Part shown: positions 49,829-62,422 of the stretch, one piece after another
Layout of the letters: each line of letters opens with the position of its first letter
Position numbering within the stretch: the stretch's first letter is position 1
From: Rhizobium etli CFN 42
Lineage (GTDB): Bacteria; Pseudomonadota; Alphaproteobacteria; Rhizobiales; Rhizobiaceae
NCBI RefSeq assembly: GCF_000092045.1
Contig: NC_007761.1
Span: 2,297,001 to 2,361,000, forward strand
Length of the DNA stretch: 64,000 nt
Reading direction: 5' to 3'
Made by a program: the position numbers and the translations under genes
Notes under the pieces: generated by a model
The model's input: the letters and a program-made list of their open reading frames with translations, nothing else
What the model was told of the DNA's origin: nothing
Database searches by the model: none

Positions 49829-50134
49829 ATGAGCATATCCGGCATTACCAACATTGCTCTTTCGGGCGTGCGGGCACAGACAACGCGGGTCGGCGCGATC
49901 GCCAACAACGTCGCAAATAGCAGCACGCCTGACTACGCAAGGCTGAACACCAGCCTCACCACTGTCGCATCAGGCGGCGTCCAGGCGACCGGCAACCCGA
50001 CGGCGTCGGACGTCGACCCGGCCACCGAACTGACCAACCTTCTCGAAGCCGAACAGAGCTACAAGGCGAACGCCACGGTCTTCGAGACCGGCGCCGACAT
50101 GTGGGAAATGCTGATGAGCATTAAGCGCGACTGA
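49829..50134 (+). CDS. Flagellar-rod-like small protein
   Basis: A 101-residue protein with the flagellar basal-body rod N-terminal helix (MSISGITNIALSGVRAQTTRVGAIANNVANSSTPDYAR) and the C-terminal heptad LEAEQSYKANATVFETGADMWEML typical of FlgC/FlgF-type Flg_bbr_C. It is too short for FlgC (~130) or FlgF and lacks a middle domain, and no other flagellar genes are near. It may be an orphan paralogue, exported by another route, or a rod-mimic. ATG chosen at 49829. Confidence 0.75.
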   Translation: MSISGITNIALSGVRAQTTRVGAIANNVANSSTPDYARLNTSLTTVASGGVQATGNPTASDVDPATELTNLLEAEQSYKANATVFETGADMWEMLMSIKRD

Positions 50135-50235
50135 GTGCGACTCTCAAAAATCGTCGCGCTGTTGTAAATCTGCTTTGCATCGGACCTCGATCTGCCGATA
50201 GCGCCGCTGACACATCATCTCAGGAAGAATTCCAC

Positions 50236-50859
50236 TTGCGCCGCACTACCCTATCAATTCTTCTGAATTTGGCCGTAATAACCAGTGCTGGCGCTAGCGA
50301 AGACCTTTCCGGTGTTTGGCGTGACCTGTTCACACGCTGTCGAATCGCCGTGGAGACGGGTAAAGACTTTGATGCAACAGGATTACGCGACCTTGGGCGT
50401 GACGTCAGGACGGCCGCCCCGGTGACCGCTCCTGGGGTACCCTTTCCAGTTTTGCATGGGTACAAAATGGCTGAACAGCGCTGGGAGGTTCCGGGAGCTC
50501 GTTTCGTTGTCGTGAAAACCGAGTATCCGCCCGATCACGGCAAATCGAGACGTTCCTGCGAGCTCGAACTCGCTCAGGGAGCAACGCCGATCTCGGCGGA
50601 CGAGGAAATCCACCTGAGGACGGCATTTCTCGCCGAGCGAGATGTACTCCTCGGCACTGGGCGCTATGAGCGGTGGAATCCCGACCCGATATTTTCCACC
50701 AACCTGGGCATTCGGTTAGCCGAGAAAAATCCTTTCGGCTGCCGCGTCGTCTCTATCATGCAAATCGAGACACGATCCCAATCACCATCATTTTTCGCGA
50801 CAGGCACCGCCGAACAAGACGCAGCCTGTGGTGCAGCGCCTCGTTTTGCTCATCCATAA
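50236..50859 (+). CDS. Secreted hypothetical protein
   Basis: A 207-residue protein with a probable signal peptide (LSILLNLAVITSAGAS) and TTG start behind AGGAAG. The mature part has three cysteines (TRCRIAV, SRRSCELE, FGCRVV) and no recognised domain. Third-position GC is lower and codon use is less biased than in the neighbours, which hints at recent acquisition or weak expression. The family is unknown. Confidence 0.5.
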   Translation: MRRTTLSILLNLAVITSAGASEDLSGVWRDLFTRCRIAVETGKDFDATGLRDLGRDVRTAAPVTAPGVPFPVLHGYKMAEQRWEVPGARFVVVKTEYPPDHGKSRRSCELELAQGATPISADEEIHLRTAFLAERDVLLGTGRYERWNPDPIFSTNLGIRLAEKNPFGCRVVSIMQIETRSQSPSFFATGTAEQDAACGAAPRFAHP

Positions 50860-50941
50860 TACAGAAAACCCCGATCTCAACGGACCCAAACCGGCTTCAT
50901 CAGGAACGGTTAGCGGCTAATTTCGGCGTGTGTGGGCGGTG

Positions 50942-51334
50942 TCAGGAATGCGCCGGCTCAGCCTCGCGCCGCGCAGCAAGGGCCGCGAGATCGGCGGGTT
51001 TCAACTCGACGGATTCGCCGCAGCCGCAGGCCGATGTCTGGTTCGGATTGGTGAAGGTGAAGCCTGAGCGTAGCGTCGTCTGCTCGAAGCCCATCTCGGT
51101 GCCGAGCAGATAGAGCACGGCCGATGGTTCGACCCAGACCTTGGCGCCGTCGCGCTCGATCAGATCGTCCTTGGCATTGGGCTCGGTCACCAGATCGATG
51201 GTGTATTCCATCCCGGCGCAGCCGCCCTTCTTGATGCCGACGCGAACGCCCTTGGTCTCCGGGCCGGAATTTTCGACGATCGCCTTGACGCGGGCCGCAG
51301 CCCCTTCCGTCATGCTCATCACTGCAAAGCCCAT
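50942..51334 (-). CDS. sufA: A-type iron-sulfur carrier SufA
   Basis: A 130-residue A-type (HesB/IscA) protein with the three conserved cysteines Cys39 (KKGGCAGMEY), Cys103 and Cys105 (SACGCGES) that hold iron or a [2Fe-2S] cluster for transfer to apo-proteins. It is the last gene of the suf operon. Of the possible starts, the ATG at MGFAVM has GGAAGGAG at suitable spacing. Confidence 0.93.
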   Translation of the reverse strand: MGFAVMSMTEGAAARVKAIVENSGPETKGVRVGIKKGGCAGMEYTIDLVTEPNAKDDLIERDGAKVWVEPSAVLYLLGTEMGFEQTTLRSGFTFTNPNQTSACGCGESVELKPADLAALAARREAEPAHS

Positions 51335-51426
51335 CGGCTTCATCTCCTTCCGCAACCGGGGTCAAGATCCGGTGCTTCGTGACTCAAATGTAGTCGCCGC
51401 ACGCAAACGGATCAATACCAGCCGCC

Positions 51427-51807
51427 TCAATACCAGCCAACTGCGACCTGCGCCTCTTCCGACATGCGATCCGGCGTCCACGGCGGATCGAAGGTCATTT
51501 CGACCTCGACGCCGGACACGCCTTCGACGGCGCCGACGGCGTTCTCGACCCAGCCGGGCATCTCGCCGGCCACCGGGCAGCCCGGGGCGGTCAGCGTCAT
51601 CATGATCTTCACCATCCTGTCGTCCTCGATGTCGATCTTGTAGATCAGACCAAGTTCGAAGATGTCGGCGGGAATTTCCGGGTCGTAGACGGTCTTCAGC
51701 GCGCCGATGACGTCGTCGCTCAACCGTGCCAACTCATCGGCCGGAATGCTGGAATGCACGATGCCTTCGCGCACGTCGATCTTCTGTTCGCTTTCGTCCA
51801 GGCTCAT
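51427..51807 (-). CDS. sufT: SUF-linked MIP18/DUF59 protein (SufT)
   Basis: A 126-residue DUF59 family protein, with DDVIGALKTVYDPEIPADIFELGLIY at residues ~30-55 and VEVEMTFDPPWTPDRM near the C-terminus (the DPPW motif). SufT is an accessory for iron-sulfur cluster maturation. It starts 12 bases after sufS ends and 92 bases before sufA. Confidence 0.92.
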   Translation of the reverse strand: MSLDESEQKIDVREGIVHSSIPADELARLSDDVIGALKTVYDPEIPADIFELGLIYKIDIEDDRMVKIMMTLTAPGCPVAGEMPGWVENAVGAVEGVSGVEVEMTFDPPWTPDRMSEEAQVAVGWY

Positions 51808-51819
51808 CACGGACACTCC

Positions 51820-53061
51820 TCAAGCAAAGAACTTGCGCGCATATTCAAGCGCATCGGCCAGGGCATCGACCTCGGCGCGCGTATTGTACATGCCGAAGGA
51901 TGCACGGCATGTGGAGGTGACGCCGAAGCGTTTCAAGAGCGGCATGGCGCAATGCGTGCCGGCACGCACTGCAATGCCCTGCCGGTCGATCACCATCGAG
52001 ACGTCGTGGGCGTGGATGCCGGCAAGCTCGAAGGAAAAGATACTGCCCTTGTCAGGCGCCGTGCCGAAGACGCGCAGCGAATTGACCGATTTCAGCCGCT
52101 CGACCGCGTAAGCGGCAAGATCGGCCTCATGCCGGGCGATCGCCTCGCGGCCGACCTTCTCCATATAGTCGAGCGCATAGCCGAGCCCGATCGCCTGGAC
52201 GATCGGCGGCGTGCCGGCTTCGAAGCGATGCGGCGGATCGTTGTAGGTGACCGCATCCTCGGCAACCTCGAAAATCATCTCGCCGCCGCCCTGGAACGGG
52301 CGCATCTGGGCAAGCCGTTCCTTCTTGCCGTAAAGCACGCCGATGCCAGACGGGCCGTAGAGCTTGTGGCCGGTCATGACGTACCAGTCGCAATCGATAT
52401 CCAGCACGTCGACCGGCAGATGTACGGCGCCCTGGCTGCCGTCGATCAAGACCGGAATGCCCCGCTCATGGGCGATGCGGCAGACCTCCTTGACGGGAAC
52501 GATCGTGCCGAGCGCGTTCGACATATGGGTGATGGCGACGAGCTTGGTGCGCTCTGTCAGGCTTTTCTCGAAATCCTCGATATTGAAGGCGCCCTCGTCG
52601 TCAACCGGCACCCAGACCAGTTTCGCGCCCTGCCGCTCGCGGATGAAGTGCCAGGGCACGATGTTGGAGTGGTGCTCCATGATCGTCAGGACGATCTCGT
52701 CACCTTCGCCGATCTGAGGCATGCCCCAGCCATAGGCGACGGTGTTGATCGCCTCAGTCGAATTCTTGGTGAAGACGATATCGTTCACCGAAGGGGCATT
52801 GAGAAAGCGGCGTACCTTCTCGCGCGCCGCCTCGTAGGCATCCGTCGCGATATTGGAGAGATAATGCAGGCCGCGATGCACATTGGCATATTCATGGGCG
52901 TAGGCATGCGAGATGGCGTCGATCACCACCTGCGGCTTCTGGGCCGAGGCACCGTTGTCGAGGTAGACCAGCGGCTTGCCGTGCACCTTCTCCGCCAGGA
53001 TCGGAAAATCCCGGCGGATGGCTTCGACGTCGTATGGCGTGGCCGGTGCGATCTTATCCAT
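51820..53061 (-). CDS. sufS: Cysteine desulfurase SufS
   Basis: A 413-residue group II cysteine desulfurase that moves sulfur from cysteine to its active-site Cys. Lys233 in TGHKLYGPSG binds pyridoxal phosphate and Cys371 in RAGTHCAMPL carries the persulfide. SufS normally needs a SufE or SufU partner; no sufE is in this operon, though an IscU-like gene is encoded elsewhere in the window. Starts 12 bases after sufD's stop. Confidence 0.96.
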   Translation of the reverse strand: MDKIAPATPYDVEAIRRDFPILAEKVHGKPLVYLDNGASAQKPQVVIDAISHAYAHEYANVHRGLHYLSNIATDAYEAAREKVRRFLNAPSVNDIVFTKNSTEAINTVAYGWGMPQIGEGDEIVLTIMEHHSNIVPWHFIRERQGAKLVWVPVDDEGAFNIEDFEKSLTERTKLVAITHMSNALGTIVPVKEVCRIAHERGIPVLIDGSQGAVHLPVDVLDIDCDWYVMTGHKLYGPSGIGVLYGKKERLAQMRPFQGGGEMIFEVAEDAVTYNDPPHRFEAGTPPIVQAIGLGYALDYMEKVGREAIARHEADLAAYAVERLKSVNSLRVFGTAPDKGSIFSFELAGIHAHDVSMVIDRQGIAVRAGTHCAMPLLKRFGVTSTCRASFGMYNTRAEVDALADALEYARKFFA

Positions 53062-53073
53062 TGGTGTATCCGA

Positions 53074-54348
53074 TCAGGCGTGCTTCTCGAGCCAGGCCGA
53101 GATCACGCCTTCCAGCGCCTCGACCAGGGCTTCGTCTTCCAGTTCCTCGACGATCTCTGAGACGAAGGCATTGACGAGCATCGCCCGCGCCTTGTTCTCC
53201 GGAATGCCGCGCGCCATCATGTAATAGAGATGGTTGGCGTCGATATCCGTCACTGTCGCACCATGGCCGCACTGCACGTCGTCGGCGAAGATCTCGAGTT
53301 CGGGCTTGACCGAGAACTCGGCATCGTCGGACATCAGCAGCGTGTTGCAGGCCATCTTGGCGTCGGTCTTCTGGGCATCGGGCGCCACCCGGATCATGCC
53401 CTGGAACACACCCTTGGCACGGTCGAAGACAACATTGCGGATCACCTCGGTCGAGCCGGTATGCGGCACGTCGTGGCCGAGCACCATCGTCACGTCGGTA
53501 TGGCTCTCGGCCCCGAGCAGGTTGATGCCGCGCAGCGTCAGATCGGCGCCCTCGCCGGTCACCTTGATATGCAATTCCTGGCGCACCAGCTTGCCGCCGG
53601 CGTTGATGACGAACAGGCGAAGCTTGGCGTCAGTGCCGAGATCGACGCGGATCTGGCCGAGATGCGTATCGTCGGCGCCCTGCTGCTGCAGGATGATCCA
53701 GGTCAGCTCCGTGCCTTTGCCGACAGTGATGTCACTGATATGGGACACGAAGGCAGCGTCACCCGTCACCGCGCGGTGACGCTCGATAACGGTTGCCTTG
53801 ACGCCGGCGCCGAAGGAGACGGGAAGGCGCGTATGCGTCTGCCCGCCGGCATGGATGAACTGGATCTCGAGCGGATCTTCAAGCTCGGTATCATCAGGCA
53901 CGTCGACCACATAGCCGTCACGCACGAAGCTGCCATTGATGCGGCCGACCGCGTCATCGCTGCCGAGCGCGTCGAGCCCGCCCGCGGCCGAGCCGTCGCG
54001 CAGACTTTCGCTATAGGCCGACACGCCAAGACCCTCTGCGGCAGCCTTCTGATTGGCATGGCCCTGGATCACCGCCAGCACGCTGGAACCCGCGACGAGC
54101 GGCTCGAGCGGGTCGGAGCCGGCATCGCCTGCCTGGATCGGCAAGCCGCGCAGCAGGTTTTTGAAGTCAGTGTAGTGCCAGGCTTCGATGCGGCGCGTCG
54201 GCAGGCCGGCCTTCTTCAGGTCATCGAGAAGCCGGTCGCGCAACGCCGTCACCGCGCCGTTCCCCGGCAGATCGCCGATCTGCTGGTTGAAGGCCTCGAT
54301 CAGCGCCGTTTCGGCCGCGGTCAGGCGACTCGTCGTCTGCATGTTCAT
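53074..54348 (-). CDS. sufD: Fe-S cluster assembly protein SufD
   Basis: A 424-residue beta-helix protein, partner of SufB in the SufBC2D scaffold. C-terminal DDVQCGHGATVTDIDANHLYYMMARGIPE is the family signature. The ATG at MNMQTTS has a purine-rich site; a start six codons upstream is possible. It follows sufC by 24 bases. Confidence 0.94.
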   Translation of the reverse strand: MNMQTTSRLTAAETALIEAFNQQIGDLPGNGAVTALRDRLLDDLKKAGLPTRRIEAWHYTDFKNLLRGLPIQAGDAGSDPLEPLVAGSSVLAVIQGHANQKAAAEGLGVSAYSESLRDGSAAGGLDALGSDDAVGRINGSFVRDGYVVDVPDDTELEDPLEIQFIHAGGQTHTRLPVSFGAGVKATVIERHRAVTGDAAFVSHISDITVGKGTELTWIILQQQGADDTHLGQIRVDLGTDAKLRLFVINAGGKLVRQELHIKVTGEGADLTLRGINLLGAESHTDVTMVLGHDVPHTGSTEVIRNVVFDRAKGVFQGMIRVAPDAQKTDAKMACNTLLMSDDAEFSVKPELEIFADDVQCGHGATVTDIDANHLYYMMARGIPENKARAMLVNAFVSEIVEELEDEALVEALEGVISAWLEKHA

Positions 54349-54372
54349 GGAGGTCGTCCTTTCCACCCGAAC

Positions 54373-55128
54373 TCAGGCCGCCGCGCCGATGATATCGGCA
54401 TAGCCGTTGGCTTCGAGCTCATGCGCCAGCGTCTTGTCGCCCGACTTGATCACCTGGCCCTTGTAGAGCACGTGCACGGTATCCGGCACGATATAGTCGA
54501 GCAGGCGCTGGTAATGGGTGATGACGACGACGGCGCGATCCGGCGAACGCAGCGCGTTGACGCCGTCGGCGACGATCTTCAGCGCGTCGATGTCGAGGCC
54601 GGAATCAGTTTCGTCGAGCACGCAGAGCTTGGGCTCGAGCAGCGCCATCTGCAGGATCTCAGCGCGCTTCTTCTCACCGCCGGAGAAGCCGACATTAAGC
54701 GGCCGCTTCAGCATCTCGGTATTGATCTGCAGCTTGGCCGCGGCATCCTTGACCCGGCGCATGAAATCCGGCGTCGTCAGCTCGTCCTCGCCGCGCGCCT
54801 TGCGCTGCTCGTTCATCGCCACCTTGAGGAACTGCATGGTGGCGACACCCGGAATTTCGACCGGATACTGGAAGGCAAGGAAAATGCCCTTTGCGGCGCG
54901 CTCGGCAGGATCGAGTTCGAGAATGCTCTCGCCATTGTAGAGAATGTCACCCTCGGTGACTTCATAGTCTTCGCGTCCCGACAGCACATAAGAAAGCGTC
55001 GACTTACCGGAGCCGTTCGGCCCCATGATGGCGGCCACTTCCCCAGCCTTGACCGTCAGGTTCAGACCACGGATGATCTCGGTGCCATCTTCGGCAATGC
55101 GGGCATGAAGGTTTCTGATTTCAAGCAT
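54373..55128 (-). CDS. sufC: SUF ATPase SufC
   Basis: A 251-residue ABC-type ATPase of the SufBC2D complex. Walker A GPNGSGKSTL (about 35-44), signature VGFSGGEKKRAEI and Walker B LCVLDETDSGLD are intact. ATP hydrolysis drives remodelling of SufB-SufD. In the usual operon sufC follows sufB directly; here a GIY-YIG gene and two repeats are inserted between them, upstream of this start. Confidence 0.96.
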   Translation of the reverse strand: MLEIRNLHARIAEDGTEIIRGLNLTVKAGEVAAIMGPNGSGKSTLSYVLSGREDYEVTEGDILYNGESILELDPAERAAKGIFLAFQYPVEIPGVATMQFLKVAMNEQRKARGEDELTTPDFMRRVKDAAAKLQINTEMLKRPLNVGFSGGEKKRAEILQMALLEPKLCVLDETDSGLDIDALKIVADGVNALRSPDRAVVVITHYQRLLDYIVPDTVHVLYKGQVIKSGDKTLAHELEANGYADIIGAAA

Positions 55129-55195
55129 CTTTGTCTTTCCTGTTATCCGGCGGATTTCAAGGACCCGCCCAATTGACCGTTCGCACCGGTCTCGA

Positions 55196-55226
55196 TCCGT
55201 CATCCTCGGGCTTGTCCCGAGGATCT
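55196..55226. repeat. Left 31-bp palindromic repeat
   Basis: Begins TCCGTCATCCTCGGG, continues CTTGTCCCGAGGATCT. It is exactly the reverse complement of the right copy. The inner 20-base palindrome (8-bp arms, four-base loop) could form a cruciform or an RNA hairpin just before sufC. Confidence 0.9.
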
Positions 55227-55232
55227 AAGCCT

Positions 55233-55574
55233 TCAATTGTAATCGTTCCACTCCCGCGTATTCGGATGCGGTCGATAGACATTCTCGATTTCATCAATCC
55301 GCTCGTAGAGGTCGATCCAGGTCGGATTGAGCTCCTCTATGAGCTTGATTTTCCATTCGCGCATATAGCGCTTCAGAGATTTTTCCCGCTGGATCGCCAA
55401 CACGATGTTCGGATGGTTTTCAAACCAGACGAGATTCTTTGCTCTGTATTTCTGCGTGAAACCCTTATGGATTTCGTTGCGATGTTCCCATATGCGACCG
55501 TGCAGATCACTCGTAACGCCGGTGTAGATCACGCCCCGCGGTTTGTCGGACATCATATAGACGAAACCAGTCAT
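55233..55574 (-). CDS. GIY-YIG nuclease family protein
   Basis: A 113-residue, single-domain GIY-YIG endonuclease. VYMMSD and IYTGVTS correspond to the GIY and YIG halves; Arg27, Glu30/His31 (GRIWEHR) and Glu64 (IQREKSLKRY) match the catalytic scheme of small UvrC-N-like nucleases. Family members of this length occur in many copies in Alphaproteobacteria, function unknown. The longest frame extends into the right repeat, but ATG at MTGFVYMM is the natural start. It sits inside the suf operon with no sequence link to iron-sulfur assembly. Confidence 0.9.
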   Translation of the reverse strand: MTGFVYMMSDKPRGVIYTGVTSDLHGRIWEHRNEIHKGFTQKYRAKNLVWFENHPNIVLAIQREKSLKRYMREWKIKLIEELNPTWIDLYERIDEIENVYRPHPNTREWNDYN

Positions 55575-55594
55575 CCTTGTCCTTTGACCGCAGC

Positions 55595-55625
55595 AGATCC
55601 TCGGGACAAGCCCGAGGATGACGGA
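55595..55625. repeat. Right 31-bp palindromic repeat
   Basis: Exact inverted copy of 55196-55226. It lies eight bases downstream of the sufB stop and 20 bases upstream of the GIY-YIG start, so it is transcribed in the suf mRNA as a potential hairpin after sufB. Confidence 0.9.
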
Positions 55626-55632
55626 GGCTGTG

Positions 55633-57102
55633 TTAGCCGACACTCCCTTCCAGCGAAATGCTGATCAGCTTCTGCGCCTCGACGGCGAACTCCATCGGCA
55701 GTTCCTGCAGCACTTCCTTGACGAAGCCGTTGACGATCAGCGCGATCGCCGCTTCTGTCGGGATGCCGCGCTGCAGGCAGTAGAACAGCTGGTCCTCGGA
55801 GATCTTCGAGGTCGTCGCTTCGTGCTCGAACTGCGCCGTCGAATTCTTCGCCTCGATGTAGGGCACGGTATGGGCGCCGCACTTGTCGCCGATCAACAGC
55901 GAATCGCACTGCGTGAAGTTGCGCGCGTTCGACGCCTTGCGGTGAGCCGAGACCTGGCCGCGATAGGTGTTGTTGGAAACACCGGCGGCAATGCCCTTGG
56001 AGACGATGCGGCTCGACGTGTTCTTGCCGAGATGGATCATCTTTGTGCCGCTGTCGATCTGCTGATGGCCGTTGGATACGGCGATCGAGTAGAACTCGCC
56101 TCTGGAGTCGTCGCCGCGCAGGATGCACGACGGGTACTTCCAGGTGATCGCCGAGCCGGTTTCGACCTGCGTCCAGGAAATTTTCGAGCGGGCGCCGCGG
56201 CAATCGCCGCGCTTGGTGACGAAATTGTAGATGCCGCCCTTGCCTTCCTTGTCACCGGGATACCAGTTCTGGACGGTGGAATATTTGATCTCGGCATCGT
56301 CGAGCGCCACGAGCTCGACCACCGCGGCGTGCAGCTGGTTTTCGTCGCGCTGCGGGGCGGTGCAGCCTTCGAGATAGGAGACGTAGGCGCCCTCTTCCGC
56401 GATGATCAGCGTGCGTTCGAACTGGCCGGTACCCTTCTCGTTGATGCGGAAATAGGTGGAGAGCTCCATCGGGCAGCGAACGCCCTTCGGCACGAAGACG
56501 AAGGAGCCATCGGTGAACACAGCCGAATTCAGCGTCGCATAATAATTGTCCGAAGTCGGTACGACCGAGCCGAGATATTTGCGGACAAGATCGGGATGTT
56601 CGCGGATCGCTTCCGAGATCGACATGAAGATCACGCCGGCCTTCTTCAGCTCCGCTTTGAAGGTGGTGACGACCGAGACACTGTCGAAAACGGCATCGAC
56701 GGCGATCTTGGGCTTCTCGACGCCGGCGAGAATCTCTTGCTCACGCAGCGGAATGCCGAGCTTGTCATAGACCTTGAGCAGCTCCGGATCGACTTCGTCG
56801 AGCGACTTCGGACCCGGCGCGCTCTTCGGCGCGGCGTAATAATGAATGTCGTTGAAGTCGATCTTCGGATAATTGACGCGCGCCCAGGTCGGCTCTTCCA
56901 GCGTCAGCCAGCGCCGATAAGCTTCGAGACGCCATTCCAGCATCCAATCCGGCTCTTGCTTCTTGGCCGAAATGAAGCGGATGATATCCTCGGACAAGCC
57001 TTTCGGGGCCTTGTCCATTTCGATGACAGTCTCGAAACCGTATTTGTACTGGTCCACATCGATCAGGCGCACCTGGTCGATCGTTTCCTGCACGGCAGCC
57101 AT
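55633..57102 (-). CDS. sufB: Fe-S cluster assembly scaffold SufB
   Basis: A 489-residue scaffold core of SufBC2D on which the cluster is built. Characteristic segments: [39 protein letters not shown] and [22 protein letters not shown] (cluster/sulfur-accepting cysteines). GGAGA before the ATG at MAAVQETI sets the start; the longer frame crosses a tandem repeat. It follows the IscS-like gene by 192 bp. Confidence 0.96.
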
Positions 57103-57173
57103 TTCGTTCTCCAATCTCGCCGGATCCAAGGTCCGGCAGCTTGTAGCATTTGGGCAATTGTCTCGCCCTTCAT

Positions 57174-57222
57174 GTCGGGCGACTTCCTTGCCCTGATGGT
57201 CGGGCAAATCCTTGCCCTGATG
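57174..57222. repeat. Tandem ~24-bp repeat before sufB
   Basis: Two imperfect copies (57174-57198 and 57199-57222), sharing GTCGGGC at one end and TCCTTGCCCTGATG at the other, with a third degenerate copy further on. Lies in the 192-bp leader between the IscS-like gene and sufB; no coding role. Confidence 0.65.
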
Positions 57223-57259
57223 TAAGAGGCCAAAAGGGACTTTTCAGCCCGATTGGCAA

Positions 57260-57279
57260 GCGGAAATTTGCATTTCCGC
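57260..57279. promoter_or_regulatory. Hairpin in IscS-like/sufB spacer
   Basis: GCGGAAAT and ATTTCCGC, 8-bp arms with a four-base loop, fourteen bases after the IscS-like stop. No T-run follows, so it more likely protects or processes the message than ends it. Confidence 0.4.
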
Positions 57280-57294
57280 AAGTTTATGATGCGG

Positions 57295-58461
57295 TCAGGC
57301 CGCCTCGCCCGCCGACCTGCGCCGGCAGGCGATCTTCGCAAAAGCAGCAATTGCCCTGTCGATATCCTCTTCCGTCGTCGAAAAGCCAAGCGAGATGCGC
57401 AAGCCGCCGAGCTTGGCGTCGCGTCCCATCGCCGTCAGCACATGGCTTTCGCCGAGCCGTCCCGACGAGCAGGCCGAGCCTGCCGACAGAGCCACCCCTT
57501 CGAGATCGAAGGCGATCTGGCCGGTCTCTGCTTTCAAGCCCGGTAGAGTGAAGAAGATCGTATTGGCAACACGTTCGCCAGCCTCGCCGTGGATGATCAC
57601 GTCGGCGGCGTGTCGGCGCATGCCGGCTTCCAGCCGCTCACGCATTACACCGATCGCCACATTGCGCATCTCGAGCTCGCCCGCGGCCACCTCGGCTGCG
57701 GCGCCGAAGCCGATCAGCGCCAGCGAATTCTGTGTCCCTGACCGGTGACCGCGCTCCTGCCCGCCGCCCTGGATCAGCGGCCGCGGCATCAGCGCCTCGC
57801 CACGTGCGATCAGCGCGCCCGCGCCCTTCGGCCCACCGATCTTGTGCGAGGAGACGATCATGAAATCGGCGCCAATCCGGTTGATGTCGAGGGCGATGCG
57901 ACCAGCCGCCTGCACGGCGTCGACCACGAAGAGCCCACCATGGGCATGCACGATCTTCGCCGCCGCCTCGACCGGCTGGATGATACCCGTCTCGTTGTTA
58001 ACAAGCATGACGGCGACCATCGGCAGGCCTGCGGCCTTGTCATGGGCCCCAAGCAGAAGCCCGAGCGCGTCGAGATCGACGATTCCGGCCTCCGTCACCG
58101 GGATCTCCGTCATGTTTTCCCTCGAGAAGCGCCCGCCTTCGCGAACCGCCGGGTGCTCGACTGCTGAGAAATAGAGATGGCCAAGCCGAAGCGGCGTGCG
58201 GCCCATGCGAAATTCCGGCGTCAGCACCAGATTGGCTGCTTCCGTTGCGCCGCTGGTGAAGATCACATTGCCGGCTTCTGTGCCGGCAAGGGCGGCGACC
58301 TTGCGTCGCGCACATTCGATAGCTGCGCGGGCGGCCCGTCCCTCACCATGCACGCTGTTCGGATTGCCAAACACGTCAATGGCGCCCATGATCGCCTCAC
58401 GCGCTGCGGGGTGCAGCGGCGCTGTGGCATTCCAGTCGAGATAAAGGCGTGGCGGCGCCAT
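57295..58461 (-). CDS. Cysteine desulfurase, IscS/NifS type
   Basis: A 388-residue group I cysteine desulfurase. PLP-binding lysine in IVSSHKIGGPKG and the flexible Cys loop SAGSACSSGRLGESHVL distinguish it from SufS. It is the first gene of the suf operon in this genome, so the operon encodes two desulfurases of different classes. No iscR regulator gene precedes it. ATG at MAPPRLYLDWNATAP chosen over a longer form. Confidence 0.9.
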   Translation of the reverse strand: MAPPRLYLDWNATAPLHPAAREAIMGAIDVFGNPNSVHGEGRAARAAIECARRKVAALAGTEAGNVIFTSGATEAANLVLTPEFRMGRTPLRLGHLYFSAVEHPAVREGGRFSRENMTEIPVTEAGIVDLDALGLLLGAHDKAAGLPMVAVMLVNNETGIIQPVEAAAKIVHAHGGLFVVDAVQAAGRIALDINRIGADFMIVSSHKIGGPKGAGALIARGEALMPRPLIQGGGQERGHRSGTQNSLALIGFGAAAEVAAGELEMRNVAIGVMRERLEAGMRRHAADVIIHGEAGERVANTIFFTLPGLKAETGQIAFDLEGVALSAGSACSSGRLGESHVLTAMGRDAKLGGLRISLGFSTTEEDIDRAIAAFAKIACRRRSAGEAA

Positions 58462-58586
58462 GATCTTCAGTCCTGCGCTTGACGAGCTTGCTTCAGCACC
58501 CACGGTTCATTTTTCTTGAAATTTCCGCCGGGCTTGCCGTATGACACGTTCCACGAAGCGTGGATCGCCATGCAAGTTTCGAATTG

Positions 58587-58606
58587 TTCTAAACTGCGTT
58601 TTAGAA
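58587..58606. promoter_or_regulatory. Inverted repeat in suf/hydrolase divergent region
   Basis: TTCTAAA-CTGCGT-TTTAGAA is a 20-base inverted repeat with 7-bp arms, in the 217-bp gap between the suf operon start and the divergent hydrolase gene. The half sites resemble the TTTAGAA/TTCTAAA halves of Irr iron-control elements, but in opposite order. An iron-regulator site is therefore a suggestion only. Confidence 0.45.
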
Positions 58607-58678
58607 AAGCTGACAACGTTAGTCAAGTCATGTTGTCGCCCGACGCAGCCCGAACGCGAAATAAAACCCGGAGTACCA

Positions 58679-59356
58679 ATGCCCGAAGTAATTTTCAACG
58701 GCCCAGCCGGCCGTCTTGAAGGCCGCTACCAGCCCTCCAAGGAAAAAAGCGCGCCCATCGCGCTCATCCTGCATCCGCATCCGCAGTTCGGCGGCACGAT
58801 GAACAATCAGATCGTCTACCAGCTCTTCTACATGTTCCAGAAGCGCGGGTTCACGACGCTGCGCTTCAATTTCCGGGGCATCGGCCGCAGCCAGGGCGAA
58901 TTCGATCACGGCGCTGGCGAATTGTCGGATGCCGCCTCCGCGCTCGACTGGGTGCAGAGCCTGCACCCAGATTCCAAGACCTGCTGGGTCGCCGGCTATT
59001 CCTTCGGCGCCTGGATCGGCATGCAGCTTCTGATGCGCCGGCCCGAAATCGAAGGCTTCATGTCGATCGCCCCGCAGCCGAATACCTACGACTTCTCCTT
59101 CCTCGCGCCCTGCCCCTCATCCGGCCTGATCATCAACGGCGAGGCCGACAAGGTGGCGCCGGAAAAGGATGTCAACGGCTTGGTCGAAAAGTTGAAGACC
59201 CAGAAAGGAATCCTCATCACCCATCGCACCGTCGCCAACGCCAACCACTTCTTCAATGGTCAGGTGGAGACGCTGATGGGCGAATGTGAGGACTATCTCG
59301 ATCGCCGCCTCAATGGCGAGCTAGTGCCCGAACCGGCGGCCAAGCGGATCCGCTGA
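58679..59356 (+). CDS. Alpha/beta hydrolase
   Basis: A 225-residue hydrolase of the small prokaryotic alpha/beta type (start VIFNGPAGRLEGRYQPS; LILHPHPQFGGTMNN; nucleophile Ser in AGYSFGAWIG; final His in NANHFFNG). No signal peptide. Homologues next to suf operons or cysteine desulfurases are common in Rhizobiales but the substrate is unknown. GGAG before the ATG defines the start; the longer frame runs from 58541. Confidence 0.88.
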   Translation: MPEVIFNGPAGRLEGRYQPSKEKSAPIALILHPHPQFGGTMNNQIVYQLFYMFQKRGFTTLRFNFRGIGRSQGEFDHGAGELSDAASALDWVQSLHPDSKTCWVAGYSFGAWIGMQLLMRRPEIEGFMSIAPQPNTYDFSFLAPCPSSGLIINGEADKVAPEKDVNGLVEKLKTQKGILITHRTVANANHFFNGQVETLMGECEDYLDRRLNGELVPEPAAKRIR

Positions 59357-59389
59357 CCGCATAGCCCCGACGTCTGCCCACCGCCATCG

Positions 59390-59965
59390 TCACGACGCGC
59401 TGGGCTTTCCCGACTGCATGCCGGCAGTCAGCTCGTAAGCCGTGTCGAGGACTCCATCGATCAGGATCGGCGCGCGTTCGCGCATGCCGATCTTCCTGAG
59501 GACCCGCTGCGAAGCAACGTTTTCGGGATGCGTGAAAGCGATGAAGCTCGACGCGAACTCCCCCGAGAAGAACCAGCCGGCCAGCGCGCTCGCCGCCTCC
59601 GTCGCCAGGCCCTTGCCCCACACCTCCTCGCGCAGGAAATAGCCGAGTTCGAATTGGTCACTCCCGAATCGCGAAATGCCGGCGCGACCGATAAAGCTGC
59701 CATCCGCGGCGAGAAGCTTGTATTTGGTTGTACCGTCGCGCGCCTGCTCCGCGAACCAGCCGCGCAACCGTTGCTCGGCCTTATCAAGACTCCAGGGAGT
59801 ATTGTCGGGAAGATATCGCGTCGTCGCCATGCTCGAGTGCAGTTGCCGCAGCAGGGCGGCGTCGCCTTCGTCCCACATGACAAAACGCAGCCTCGGCGTC
59901 TCCAATATCAGCCTTTGCTTGTCATGGTGTTGCCAGCACGCCGCCGCTGACGGGAGCCGCAACAC
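59390..59965 (-). CDS. GNAT acetyltransferase, RimJ-like
   Basis: A 191-residue GNAT with the RimJ/RimL-type pattern: [16 protein letters not shown] at the start of the domain, [19 protein letters not shown] as the acetyl-CoA loop, and [17 protein letters not shown] near the end. It probably acetylates a small molecule or protein N-terminus. The annotated GTG start lies inside the end of anmK (44-bp overlap); a later TTG or CTG start at the RLILETP segment cannot be excluded. Confidence 0.8.
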
Positions 59966-61034
59966 CCGTCGTTCCGGGAAAGGTCAGCGGCAGCCCGTCC
60001 AGCGAGCGTACGGCGAGATAGGCCCAGGCTTCGGCCTCCATCGCATCGCCGTCGAAGCCCGCGGCCTCGGCGCTCAACACTCTCGATCCCTCGGCCATCG
60101 CCGAGAACTCGGCCATCAAGGTGCCGTTCAGCCGACCGCCGCCGCAGACGATATAGGCCGAGGGACGTTCGGGCAGGAATCCGGCGGATTTGACGATCGA
60201 TGCGGCGGCGACATGAGCAAGCGTCCGGGCGCCGTCTTCGAGGCTCGCCTCATCAGGCCGAAGCGGCGCGAAATCGCCGCGATCGAGCGAACGGCGGACA
60301 TTGCCGCGGAAGAACGGGCTGTCCAGATACCGCTGCGCCAGGGCGGGGACGACCTTCCCGCGCCCGCCGATCTCGCCGCCGGGATCATAGGTTCTGCCGG
60401 TCTGCATCTCTACCCATTGATCGATCAGCGTATTGCCAGGACCGCTGTCGAAGGCGGCGATCCGGCCGTCAGCGCCGATATAGGTGAGGTTGGAGATGCC
60501 GCCGATATTGACGAAGCACACCGCCTCTCCCGCCTGCTGGAATTTTCCCGCCAGTGCTGCATGATAGGCCGGCACCAGCGGCGCACCCTGCCCGCCATGC
60601 ACCATATCGTTGGCACGCATGTCGTAGACCACCGATAAGCCCGTCCGTCGCGCCAATTCCCGACCGTCGCCGATCTGGATCGTCAGTCCCTCGTCCGGCC
60701 GGTGAAGCACCGTCTGGCCATGGAATCCGAGAACATCGACGCCATTGGCAGCGAGCCCGAAACGCTCGAGAAATGCCGTAACGGCCGTTGCATGCCGTAG
60801 GGTCAGCTCTTGCTCGATCTCGCGAAGTTCTCCCGGCCGTTCGTTCCTGTCGCGGAGCGGCCGCGCCAGTTCCAGGGCCCGTTTGAGCCGTCCGCGAAAC
60901 TCTGCATCATACGGCATGCCCAGAAACGGCCCGCGCTCGATGAAGCCGCGGCCGTCGGTCCTGATCAGCGCGACATCGATACCGTCCATCGACGTGCCGC
61001 TCATCAGCCCGATCGCGGTTCTGACCACATCCAT
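59922..61034 (-). CDS. anmK: Anhydro-N-acetylmuramic acid kinase
   Basis: A 370-residue sugar kinase in cell-wall recycling: it opens and phosphorylates 1,6-anhydroMurNAc to MurNAc-6-phosphate. Signature residues: [17 protein letters not shown] at 8-24 (phosphate-binding loop), [23 protein letters not shown], and [10 protein letters not shown] near the C-terminus. Length is normal. The ATG start is at MDVVRTA. Divergent from tyrS by 130 bp. Confidence 0.94.
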
Positions 61035-61165
61035 GAGGCTTGCCTCCCATGCGATTCCCGGATGCACTTTTGTAAAAACAGTGCTAAACGCGCCGCGACA
61101 GATCAACAACAACGAAGTTGCGTGAAGCCCGGCGGGCGAAGCGCAGGCACGAAGAGACGAAAGCC

Positions 61166-62422
61166 ATGTCCGAGTTCAAGTCCGATTTCCTCCGTACGCT
61201 GAAAGAGCGTGGCTTCATTCATCAGGTTTCCGATGAAAGCGGCCTCGACGACCTGTTCGCGAAGGAGGTCGTGACGGCCTATGTCGGCTACGACGCAACC
61301 GCGACCAGCCTGCATATCGGCAATCTGATCTCGGCCACCATGCTCTACTGGCTGCAGGAGACGGGCCATCGGCCGATCGCGCTGATGGGCGGCGGTACTT
61401 CGATGGTCGGCGATCCCTCCTTCCGTGACGAGCAGCGCAAGCTTCTGACGCCGGAGGCGATCGCCACCAACATCGAGGGCATCAAAAAGATCTTCTCGCG
61501 GATCCTGCGCTTCGGCGACGGCCCGACCGATGCCTTCATGGTCAACAATGCCGACTGGCTGATGAAGCTCAATTATGTCGAATTCCTGCGCGACGTCGGC
61601 CGGCATTTCTCGGTCAACCGCATGCTCTCCTTCGACAGCGTCAAGCTGCGCCTCGATCGCGAGCAATCGCTCTCCTTCCTGGAATTCAACTACATGATCA
61701 TGCAGGGCTACGACTTCGTCGAGCTCAGCCGCCGCTACGGCTGCCGCCTGCAGATGGGCGGTTCGGACCAGTGGGGCAACATCATCAACGGCGTCGATCT
61801 CGGTCACCGGATGGGGACGCCGCAGCTTTACGCGCTGACGACCCCGCTTTTGACGACGAGTTCCGGCGCAAAGATGGGCAAGACCGCCTCCGGTGCCGTT
61901 TGGCTGAACGAGGACGTCTTCAGCCCCTATGATTTCTGGCAATACTGGCGCAACACCGAGGATGCCGATGTCGGCCGGTTCCTGAAGATTTTCACCCGCC
62001 TGCCTCTTTCCGAAATCGCAAGGCTCGAAGCGCTGGGCGGCGCCGAAATCAACGAGGCGAAGAAGATTCTCGCCACGGAAGCGACCGCGATCGTCCACGG
62101 TCGCGTGGCGGCCGAAGCATCCGCAGAAACGGCCCGCACCACCTTCGAGGAAGGCCGCATCGCCGAAAACCTGCCTTCGGTCGAGATCCCGGCCACAGAA
62201 CTCGACGGCGGCATCGGTCTGCTCTCGCTGATGGTGCGCGCCGGCCTTGCCGGCTCCAACGGCGAAGCCCGTCGCCACGTCCAGGGTGGCGCAGTGCGCG
62301 TCAATGACGAGGCCATCAGCGACGAACGCCGCCTGATCGGCAGCGGCGAAATTACCGCCGACGGCGTCATCAAGCTCTCGCTCGGCAAGAAGAAGCACAT
62401 CCTGATCCGCCGCGCGGCATAG
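61166..62422 (+). CDS. tyrS: Tyrosine--tRNA ligase
   Basis: A 418-residue class I synthetase charging tRNA-Tyr. HIGN (HIGH-like) in [11 protein letters not shown], the [14 protein letters not shown] region, the KMGKT variant of KMSKS ([15 protein letters not shown]), and a C-terminal S4 RNA-binding domain ([30 protein letters not shown] sequence) are present. ATG at MSEFKSDFL chosen over a frame 16 codons longer. A strong terminator follows. Confidence 0.96.

Follow-up and report, generated by a model that had tools for sequence, protein, structure and literature searches.

What is a small nuclease gene doing between two exact hairpin repeats inside a suf operon, and do gene and repeats belong together? 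The question is raised by a locus in the 64,000-nucleotide stretch of Rhizobium etli CFN 42 DNA analysed here (the window). With a confidence a little above even, we read this locus as a unit in which a GIY-YIG nuclease gene lies between two outward-headed, cognate REPs of the CGTC type. It would represent a repeat-enzyme system resembling that of the RAYTs, in which the nuclease probably cuts and moves its repeats.

The locus between sufB and sufC

The two repeats are 31 nt long and lie at 55196-55226 and 55595-55625, with 368 nt between them. As the first-pass annotation had stated, they are perfect inverted copies of each other (100% complementary). The palindrome that it had placed in each repeat is also present, but its core measures 23 nt with 9-bp arms, not 20 nt with 8-bp arms. 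The cores are at 55202-55224 and 55597-55619, and their arms (ATCCTCGGG/CCCGAGGAT) enclose a 5-nt loop. From the outside inwards, each copy consists of a CGTC head, one arm, the loop, the other arm and a short tail facing the gene. The head of the REP on the 3' side of the gene (55196..55226) points to sufC and that of the REP on the 5' side (55595..55625) to sufB, neither REP being assigned a strand.

The enzyme between the repeats is, as first described, a GIY-YIG nuclease of 113 residues, encoded on the minus strand at 55233..55574 (stop included). It is a single-domain protein, and PF01541 was the sole Pfam family matched (E 3e-11, 43.9 bits against a cut-off of 22.6). Searching NCBIfam with the 113-residue protein gave no family, and searching Rfam with window positions 50000-62000 gave no match. 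The GIY-YIG motif, R27, E64 and N83 are invariant across 18 relatives, and the AlphaFold model is of moderate confidence (mean pLDDT 74.9). Outside the unit lie the downstream neighbour sufC (54373..55131, minus strand, located by a SufC query) and the upstream neighbour sufB (55633..57207, minus strand, from the start in the list of open reading frames; the true start may be internal). All three genes thus share one strand, and the flanking REPs are co-directional with the nuclease gene inside the operon. In window positions 55131-55203, the ATG of the longest sufC frame falls within a REP head. Likewise P0037, the nuclease frame as listed, finishes in the REP-derived residues SADPRDKPEDD, so that gene calls may extend into the repeats.

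With up to 3 mismatches allowed, the core pattern was found at 37 places in the 6.53-Mb genome, many of them arranged as dimers, against 0 for a reversed control pattern. All 18 arm positions were matched at 5 places, 2 of which are the sufB-sufC pair itself. We refer to the ATCCTCGGG arm with loop cttgt and a CT tail as the A type, and to the same arm with loop cttga and a CCA tail as the B type; no exact A-type palindrome was found in this genome outside the sufB-sufC locus. A second, truncated nuclease gene of the same genome (G000:C2:3266531-3266692, L004) is 50% identical over residues 1-54 and adjoins a hairpin with ATTCCTGT, an arm sequence that belongs to the palindromes of a different nuclease clade.

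Nuclease relatives and their palindromes

Three sets of relatives were compared. For the named set, species genomes were searched with peptide patterns, and of the 88 loci obtained the best 80 were retained. The genus set holds 36 loci from 60 genus genomes, the window's own locus included, and the class set 89 loci from 192 class genomes (89 of the 101 non-own family-1 matches listed, 12 being left out). At least 8 genus loci, whose contigs equal those of named loci in length, are probably identical with the latter and counted in both sets. Within 300 bp, palindromes were present on both sides of the gene at 70/80 named loci (best 80 of 88), 18/36 genus loci and 37/89 class loci, and on at least one side at 80/80, 35/36 and 67/89, respectively; the other 22/89 class loci had no such palindrome. 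Under a stricter rule, demanding perfect arms that start with AT within 400 bp, both sides were occupied at 62/80 (best 80 of 88), 17/36 and 16/89. The link is tightest close to the clade of the window nuclease and weakens with distance.

At control positions, a gene-sized gap with such a palindrome at each end was never found, neither at 269 sliding positions of the window (0/269) nor at positions shifted from 77 named loci (0/154) or from class loci (0/48), whereas a palindrome on any side was seen at 33/269, 13/154 and 6/48. Because these 471 positions are mostly coding DNA, two further controls were added. By the same loose rule, of 45 genes annotated in a Sinorhizobium stretch, 1 had palindromes on both sides and 13 on any side, and a perfect palindrome was present in 0/22 sufB-sufC spacers of non-carriers versus 6/6 of carriers. 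No such flanking palindromes were present at UvrC or at another GIY-YIG frame of the own genome, 107 codons long. Eight further relatives came from a plasmid collection: those of Neisseria gonorrhoeae, Aeromonas, Azospirillum, Novosphingobium and Sinorhizobium had palindromes on both sides, the one from N. gonorrhoeae being embedded in dRS3-type repeats. The Photobacterium relative had a palindrome on one side only, the Planktothrix relative had none, and that of Spirosoma had only an unrelated hairpin. The single both-sided case among 45 genes and the overlap of the named and genus sets slightly lowered our confidence in the unit reading and in the wider one set out below.

The type of palindrome changes with the enzyme. 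Genus nucleases about 50% identical to that of the window, which has ATCCTCGGG-cttgt, are flanked by ATCCTCGGG-cttga, ATTCCTGTG, ATCCCAGGG or ATCCCGGA/ATGCCGGG, and many more arm types occur across the class. Left and right arms were identical in 19/37 class units versus 0.97 by shuffling, with 0/2000 shuffles as high. Loop length (4 or 5) required 11 changes on the nuclease tree versus 21.3 with shuffled labels (0/500 as low). This tree, which has few resolved forks, was built from the 114 loci kept, every sixth being used of L050-L118, after exclusion of loci with fewer than 80 aa, more than one stop, no palindrome seen or a tied loop length, and of duplicates. Loop and tail also go together: for loop cttgt, 16/18 unit ends and 48/51 dimer ends have a CT tail, and for loop cttga, 10/11 unit ends and 11/12 dimer ends have a CC tail.

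A second GIY-YIG clade (L220-L253), of about 101 aa and 30-40% identical, was tried as a negative control. At 18/34 of its loci it is flanked by inverted repeats of at least 12 bp from a different palindrome class (e.g. ATCCTGAGCTTGTCGAAGGAT, CTCATCCTGAGG), versus 9/471 control positions; palindromes of the CGTC type were found on both sides at 0/34 loci and on any side at 1/34. Because this clade has inverted repeats of its own it was dropped, and shifted positions and annotated genes were chosen as controls.

Gene-less copies, history and possible mobility

The listed REP dimers of the genus have their heads outward and tails inward, which is the layout of the nuclease units. Some heterodimers combine both ends of known units, namely ATCCTCGGG/ATCCTCGGC as in L388 and GTCCTCGGG/ATACTCGGG as in L038. 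In an exploratory test on 15 of 35 distinct dimers and 19 unit ends, picked by hand, dimers and units shared inner sequence beside the tail, with 0/5000 shuffles as high for the B type and 5/5000 for the A type; the two ends of some short dimers are not independent here, because their spacers are self-complementary. The step from unit to REP pair was seen directly once: at sufB-sufC in G032, an internal deletion has removed most of the nuclease gene and left both REPs in place. Since the layout is the same and some dimers keep the inner ends of nuclease units, the dimers look like internally deleted, non-autonomous copies of such units. Another family in the own genome consists of short heterodimers in which ATGCTCGGG-cttgt and ATCCTCGGC-acaag are placed 47-49 bp apart (e.g. 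L376 2382-2452, L378 2171-2387). These may be the mosaic elements of rhizobia known from Osteras 1995. Comparison of L426 with L425 showed a heterodimer on one plasmid whose left REP has the arm of the right-REP type, as if converted.

Copy number was compared among genus genomes. Palindromes with ATCCTCGGG occurred in 26/30 genomes with a family-1 nuclease or remnant versus 14/30 others (p 0.002). Beyond the suf site, A-type copies were present in 9/10 carriers versus 9/50 others, with the own genome as the carrier without one; the carrier list and the status "outside suf" were set by hand. Because the genomes are related, these p-values serve as a guide only. G164 has 10 family-1 nucleases listed, yet only 7 tagged palindromes in a 400-kb sample, so high-copy spread is not general. 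Taken together, the occurrence of this nuclease family with such repeats at other loci, the covarying palindromes and the gene-less copies bear out the original proposal of a repeat with a dedicated nuclease, analogous to REP/RAYT but built on another enzyme class.

A different outcome was obtained for the claim that a mobile unit had been inserted at sufB-sufC. The A-clade gene occupies the sufB-sufC interval, in the orientation of both neighbours, at 66/80 named loci (best 80 of 88), one more having sufC alone on its contig, and in 10/10 of the carriers among the genus genomes (10/60). The junction is also used in many Rhizobiaceae, Roseibium, Pannonibacter, Jiella and Martelella, and by a more distant relative in Azospirillum lipoferum; other nuclease clades are sited elsewhere, e.g. 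at hflX-mazG or fnrL. The distance matrices of the nuclease and SufC are correlated (Mantel r 0.45, 55 loci, 0/2000 permutations as high). Because the junction is so widely shared and the distances track SufC, the address is taken to be old and inheritance largely vertical, and a recent insertion is rejected. The gene is under purifying selection, with a pN/pS of 0.16 over 132 pairs with pS below 0.6, and its frame is intact at 70/80 named loci (best 80 of 88). The first-pass annotation had held that a site occupied in all relatives without variation would speak against a mobile repeat: the address is indeed shared, but an intact A-type gene is missing in 50/60 genus genomes, sufC being found in 59/60. 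Its other ground for rejection, a nuclease family that lacks such repeats at other sites, is contradicted by the palindromes of the relatives. Judged from these comparisons, the sufB-sufC unit is an old resident, largely vertically inherited, under purifying selection and often absent. RAYTs are similar in their old addresses, selection and frequent absence.

Possible traces of movement were seen at other sites. G025 carries two B-type units, 40 kb apart and in opposite orientation, that are 97.6% identical over 449 bp. Their homology begins 3 bases outside one head and extends about 34 bases past the other, and the surrounding stretches of 4.5-5 kb are otherwise unrelated, the sole further match being the inverted match of the two ends. 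In one spacer, the occupant varies between strains, being a unit, one of various REP dimers or some other repeat. In the fnrL spacer of Sphingobium plasmids, 7 records have the unit (3 aligned), 2 have a single two-headed palindrome between homologous flanks, with perfect arms in TYG64 and imperfect arms in TYG74, and 2 have neither unit nor palindrome. This two-headed allele either arose by deletion or represents a target. For the first-pass idea of spread by cutting at the palindrome, the duplicated G025 unit and these plasmid alleles give indirect support. Such palindromes also occur at L034 and L048, beside B-type genes; in the loci sampled, a biased sample, 5 two-headed palindromes stood against 478 one-headed ones.

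Empty junctions, in which the first-pass annotation had expected to find target-site changes, gave no such comparison: among the 30 sufB-sufC spacers read there was no clean empty site, non-carriers having unrelated spacers and G013 REP remnants. For the own-genome dimer, the two G025 units, the plasmid dimer, the Shinella unit and the TRAP site, no clean empty site was found either, the flanks being too divergent or filled with repeats. No target duplication was seen in the G025, Sphingobium or spacer comparisons. Within the genus, the sufB-sufC spacer (L288-L317) is hypervariable: a different small frame, starting approximately with MNETDKKRI, recurs in several non-carriers, and others have unrelated DNA. 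Another repeat, around CCTCATCCGGCTGCCGCCACCTTCTCCCC, fills many intergenic sites of the genus (spacers L354, L407, L393 and L428).

The two-headed palindromes invite a reading as a homing-like element, in which the form head-arm-loop-arm-head is the target, a cut is repaired from a filled copy and the gene is thereby installed, so that the REPs are targets or scars rather than transposon ends. The alleles at the orthologous Sphingobium site, with perfect and imperfect arms, would suit this reading, as would those beside the B-type genes at L034 and L048, and GIY-YIG domains are known from homing endonucleases. However, two-headed forms are rare in the biased sample just given, they are also explained by simple deletion between the 8-9 bp arms acting as direct repeats, and gene-less REP dimers are not predicted; we consider this explanation unlikely. 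Purifying selection, vertical inheritance and a fixed address could instead point to a domesticated host nuclease that acts on REP hairpins of DNA or RNA by trimming or resolving them, in genome upkeep or mRNA processing, and moves no DNA. The REPs, which flank the gene and are co-directional with it in the operon, would then regulate the gene itself. The duplicate units in G025, the REP dimers bearing the inner ends of units and the absence of the intact A form from most genus genomes (50/60) make this rather improbable as well.

The gene might also be a bystander in REP-rich spacers, with the REPs owing their movement to a different enzyme, for example an HUH (Y1) transposase. REPs do gather in intergenic spacers, and a Y1 transposase is present in 11/60 genus genomes, but the controls (0/471 and 1/45 both-sided, 0/22 non-carrier spacers) and the agreement of left and right arms within units argue against mere coincidence. 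Moreover, the own genome has no Y1 transposase (no PF01797 match), 9/10 A-type carriers have none, and the CGTC palindrome was found at 0/20 genus Y1 loci. An HUH transposase is therefore disfavoured as the mover of these REPs, and we give the bystander explanation hardly any weight. It is also very improbable that the nuclease is a member of the suf operon working in iron-sulfur cluster assembly: it is found at the same junction from many Rhizobiaceae, Roseibium, Pannonibacter, Jiella and Martelella to A. lipoferum, yet most genus genomes have sufC without an intact A-type gene, and other clades are located elsewhere, such as at hflX-mazG and fnrL.

Possible role and comparison with known systems

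If the gene and its REPs form a repeat-enzyme unit, as we favour, the nuclease would recognise hairpins of the REP type that flanks it and cut at or near the REP head or loop. Cutting would lead to REP dimers, and rarely the whole unit, being copied or excised, and the system would work as RAYT does on GTAG REPs, by other chemistry. At sufB-sufC the unit would persist as an old resident, kept by selection and mostly inherited vertically. More tentatively, at somewhat less than even confidence, we suggest that GIY-YIG nucleases are the missing mobilisers of CGTC REPs (rhizobial mosaic-type dimers and Neisseria dRS3 included) and form with them a new class of prokaryotic mobile element, with at least one further GIY-YIG clade using an independent palindrome superfamily and with a hairpin code of arm, loop and tail for each clade. 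Since each clade would read its own code, REP-enzyme systems may have two or more independent origins, in enzymes that are unrelated.

Small repeats of the CGTC REP kind are widespread in the alphaproteobacteria, and a candidate enzyme can now be named for many of them at once. The system carries a built-in test of specificity, as arms, loops or tails can be swapped between clades. If the nuclease moves REPs, two unrelated enzyme classes stand behind REP-enzyme systems, and there are GIY-YIG-based mobile elements in bacteria; otherwise some other role has to be sought for a nuclease that is widespread, under selection and coupled to its particular hairpins.

In PMC3733652 (Di Nocera et al. 2013), CGTC REPs are described as stems of 8-9 bp starting with AT, with loops of 4-5 nt and CGTC at one end. 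They are mostly alphaproteobacterial, predominantly dimers and mostly CCA-tailed, and include the Neisseria dRS3. The window palindrome agrees with this in its 9-bp ATCCTCGGG arms starting with AT, its 5-nt loop and its CGTC head, whereas its tails are CTG and CTA against the consensus CCA, which the B-type REPs have. The multi-copy and dimer habit is shared as well, by the core matches with up to 3 mismatches, the exact A type being confined to the sufB-sufC locus; the ATTCCCGC type of the present study corresponds to the dRS3 of that paper. The same paper describes CGTC REPs as apparently lacking a dedicated transposase, with no link to transposase genes, whereas an enzyme gene is linked to them here. 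It also leaves heterodimers without an obvious explanation; if dimers are deleted units, a reason would be that some units have two different ends.

In our search of the titles and abstract openings of open-licence papers other than preprints, no link between GIY-YIG nucleases and REPs was found among the matches listed, and searching by the repeat sequence strings found nothing. PMC9465073 has both words of the pairing in one gene table. Among PDB entries, the family profile matched three sequences, 1zg2 (3.3e-8), 1ywl (3.6e-5) and UvrC 1yd6 (0.006), at E up to 0.01, which places the nuclease near the single-domain GIY-YIG proteins of UPF0213 and near UvrC.

With insertion sequences and their MITEs the units share inverted ends, a single enzyme gene, deleted non-autonomous copies and, in G025, a duplicated unit. 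Unlike insertion sequences, they have hairpin ends and no known IS transposase domain, and no target duplication was seen; recurrence of one element at separate sites was found in G025 only, as two copies of which just one end is sharp. GIY-YIG homing endonucleases, free-standing or in introns, have a catalytic domain of the same class, and alleles with and without the gene may be a further likeness. In contrast to them, the nuclease unit is bounded by two complete hairpins and has no intron, and gene-less dimers exist. In REP/RAYT (REPtron, REPIN), too, inverted palindromes surround the enzyme gene, dimers occur elsewhere, repeats are enzyme-specific and there is mostly one gene per type; the nuclease units likewise have a gene between inverted cognate REPs whose type tracks the enzyme. 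RAYTs, however, are HUH/Y1 enzymes with GTAG repeats, whereas the window unit pairs a GIY-YIG nuclease with CGTC repeats. It is therefore best read as working like REP/RAYT without being a member, having neither the HUH domain nor the GTAG tag.
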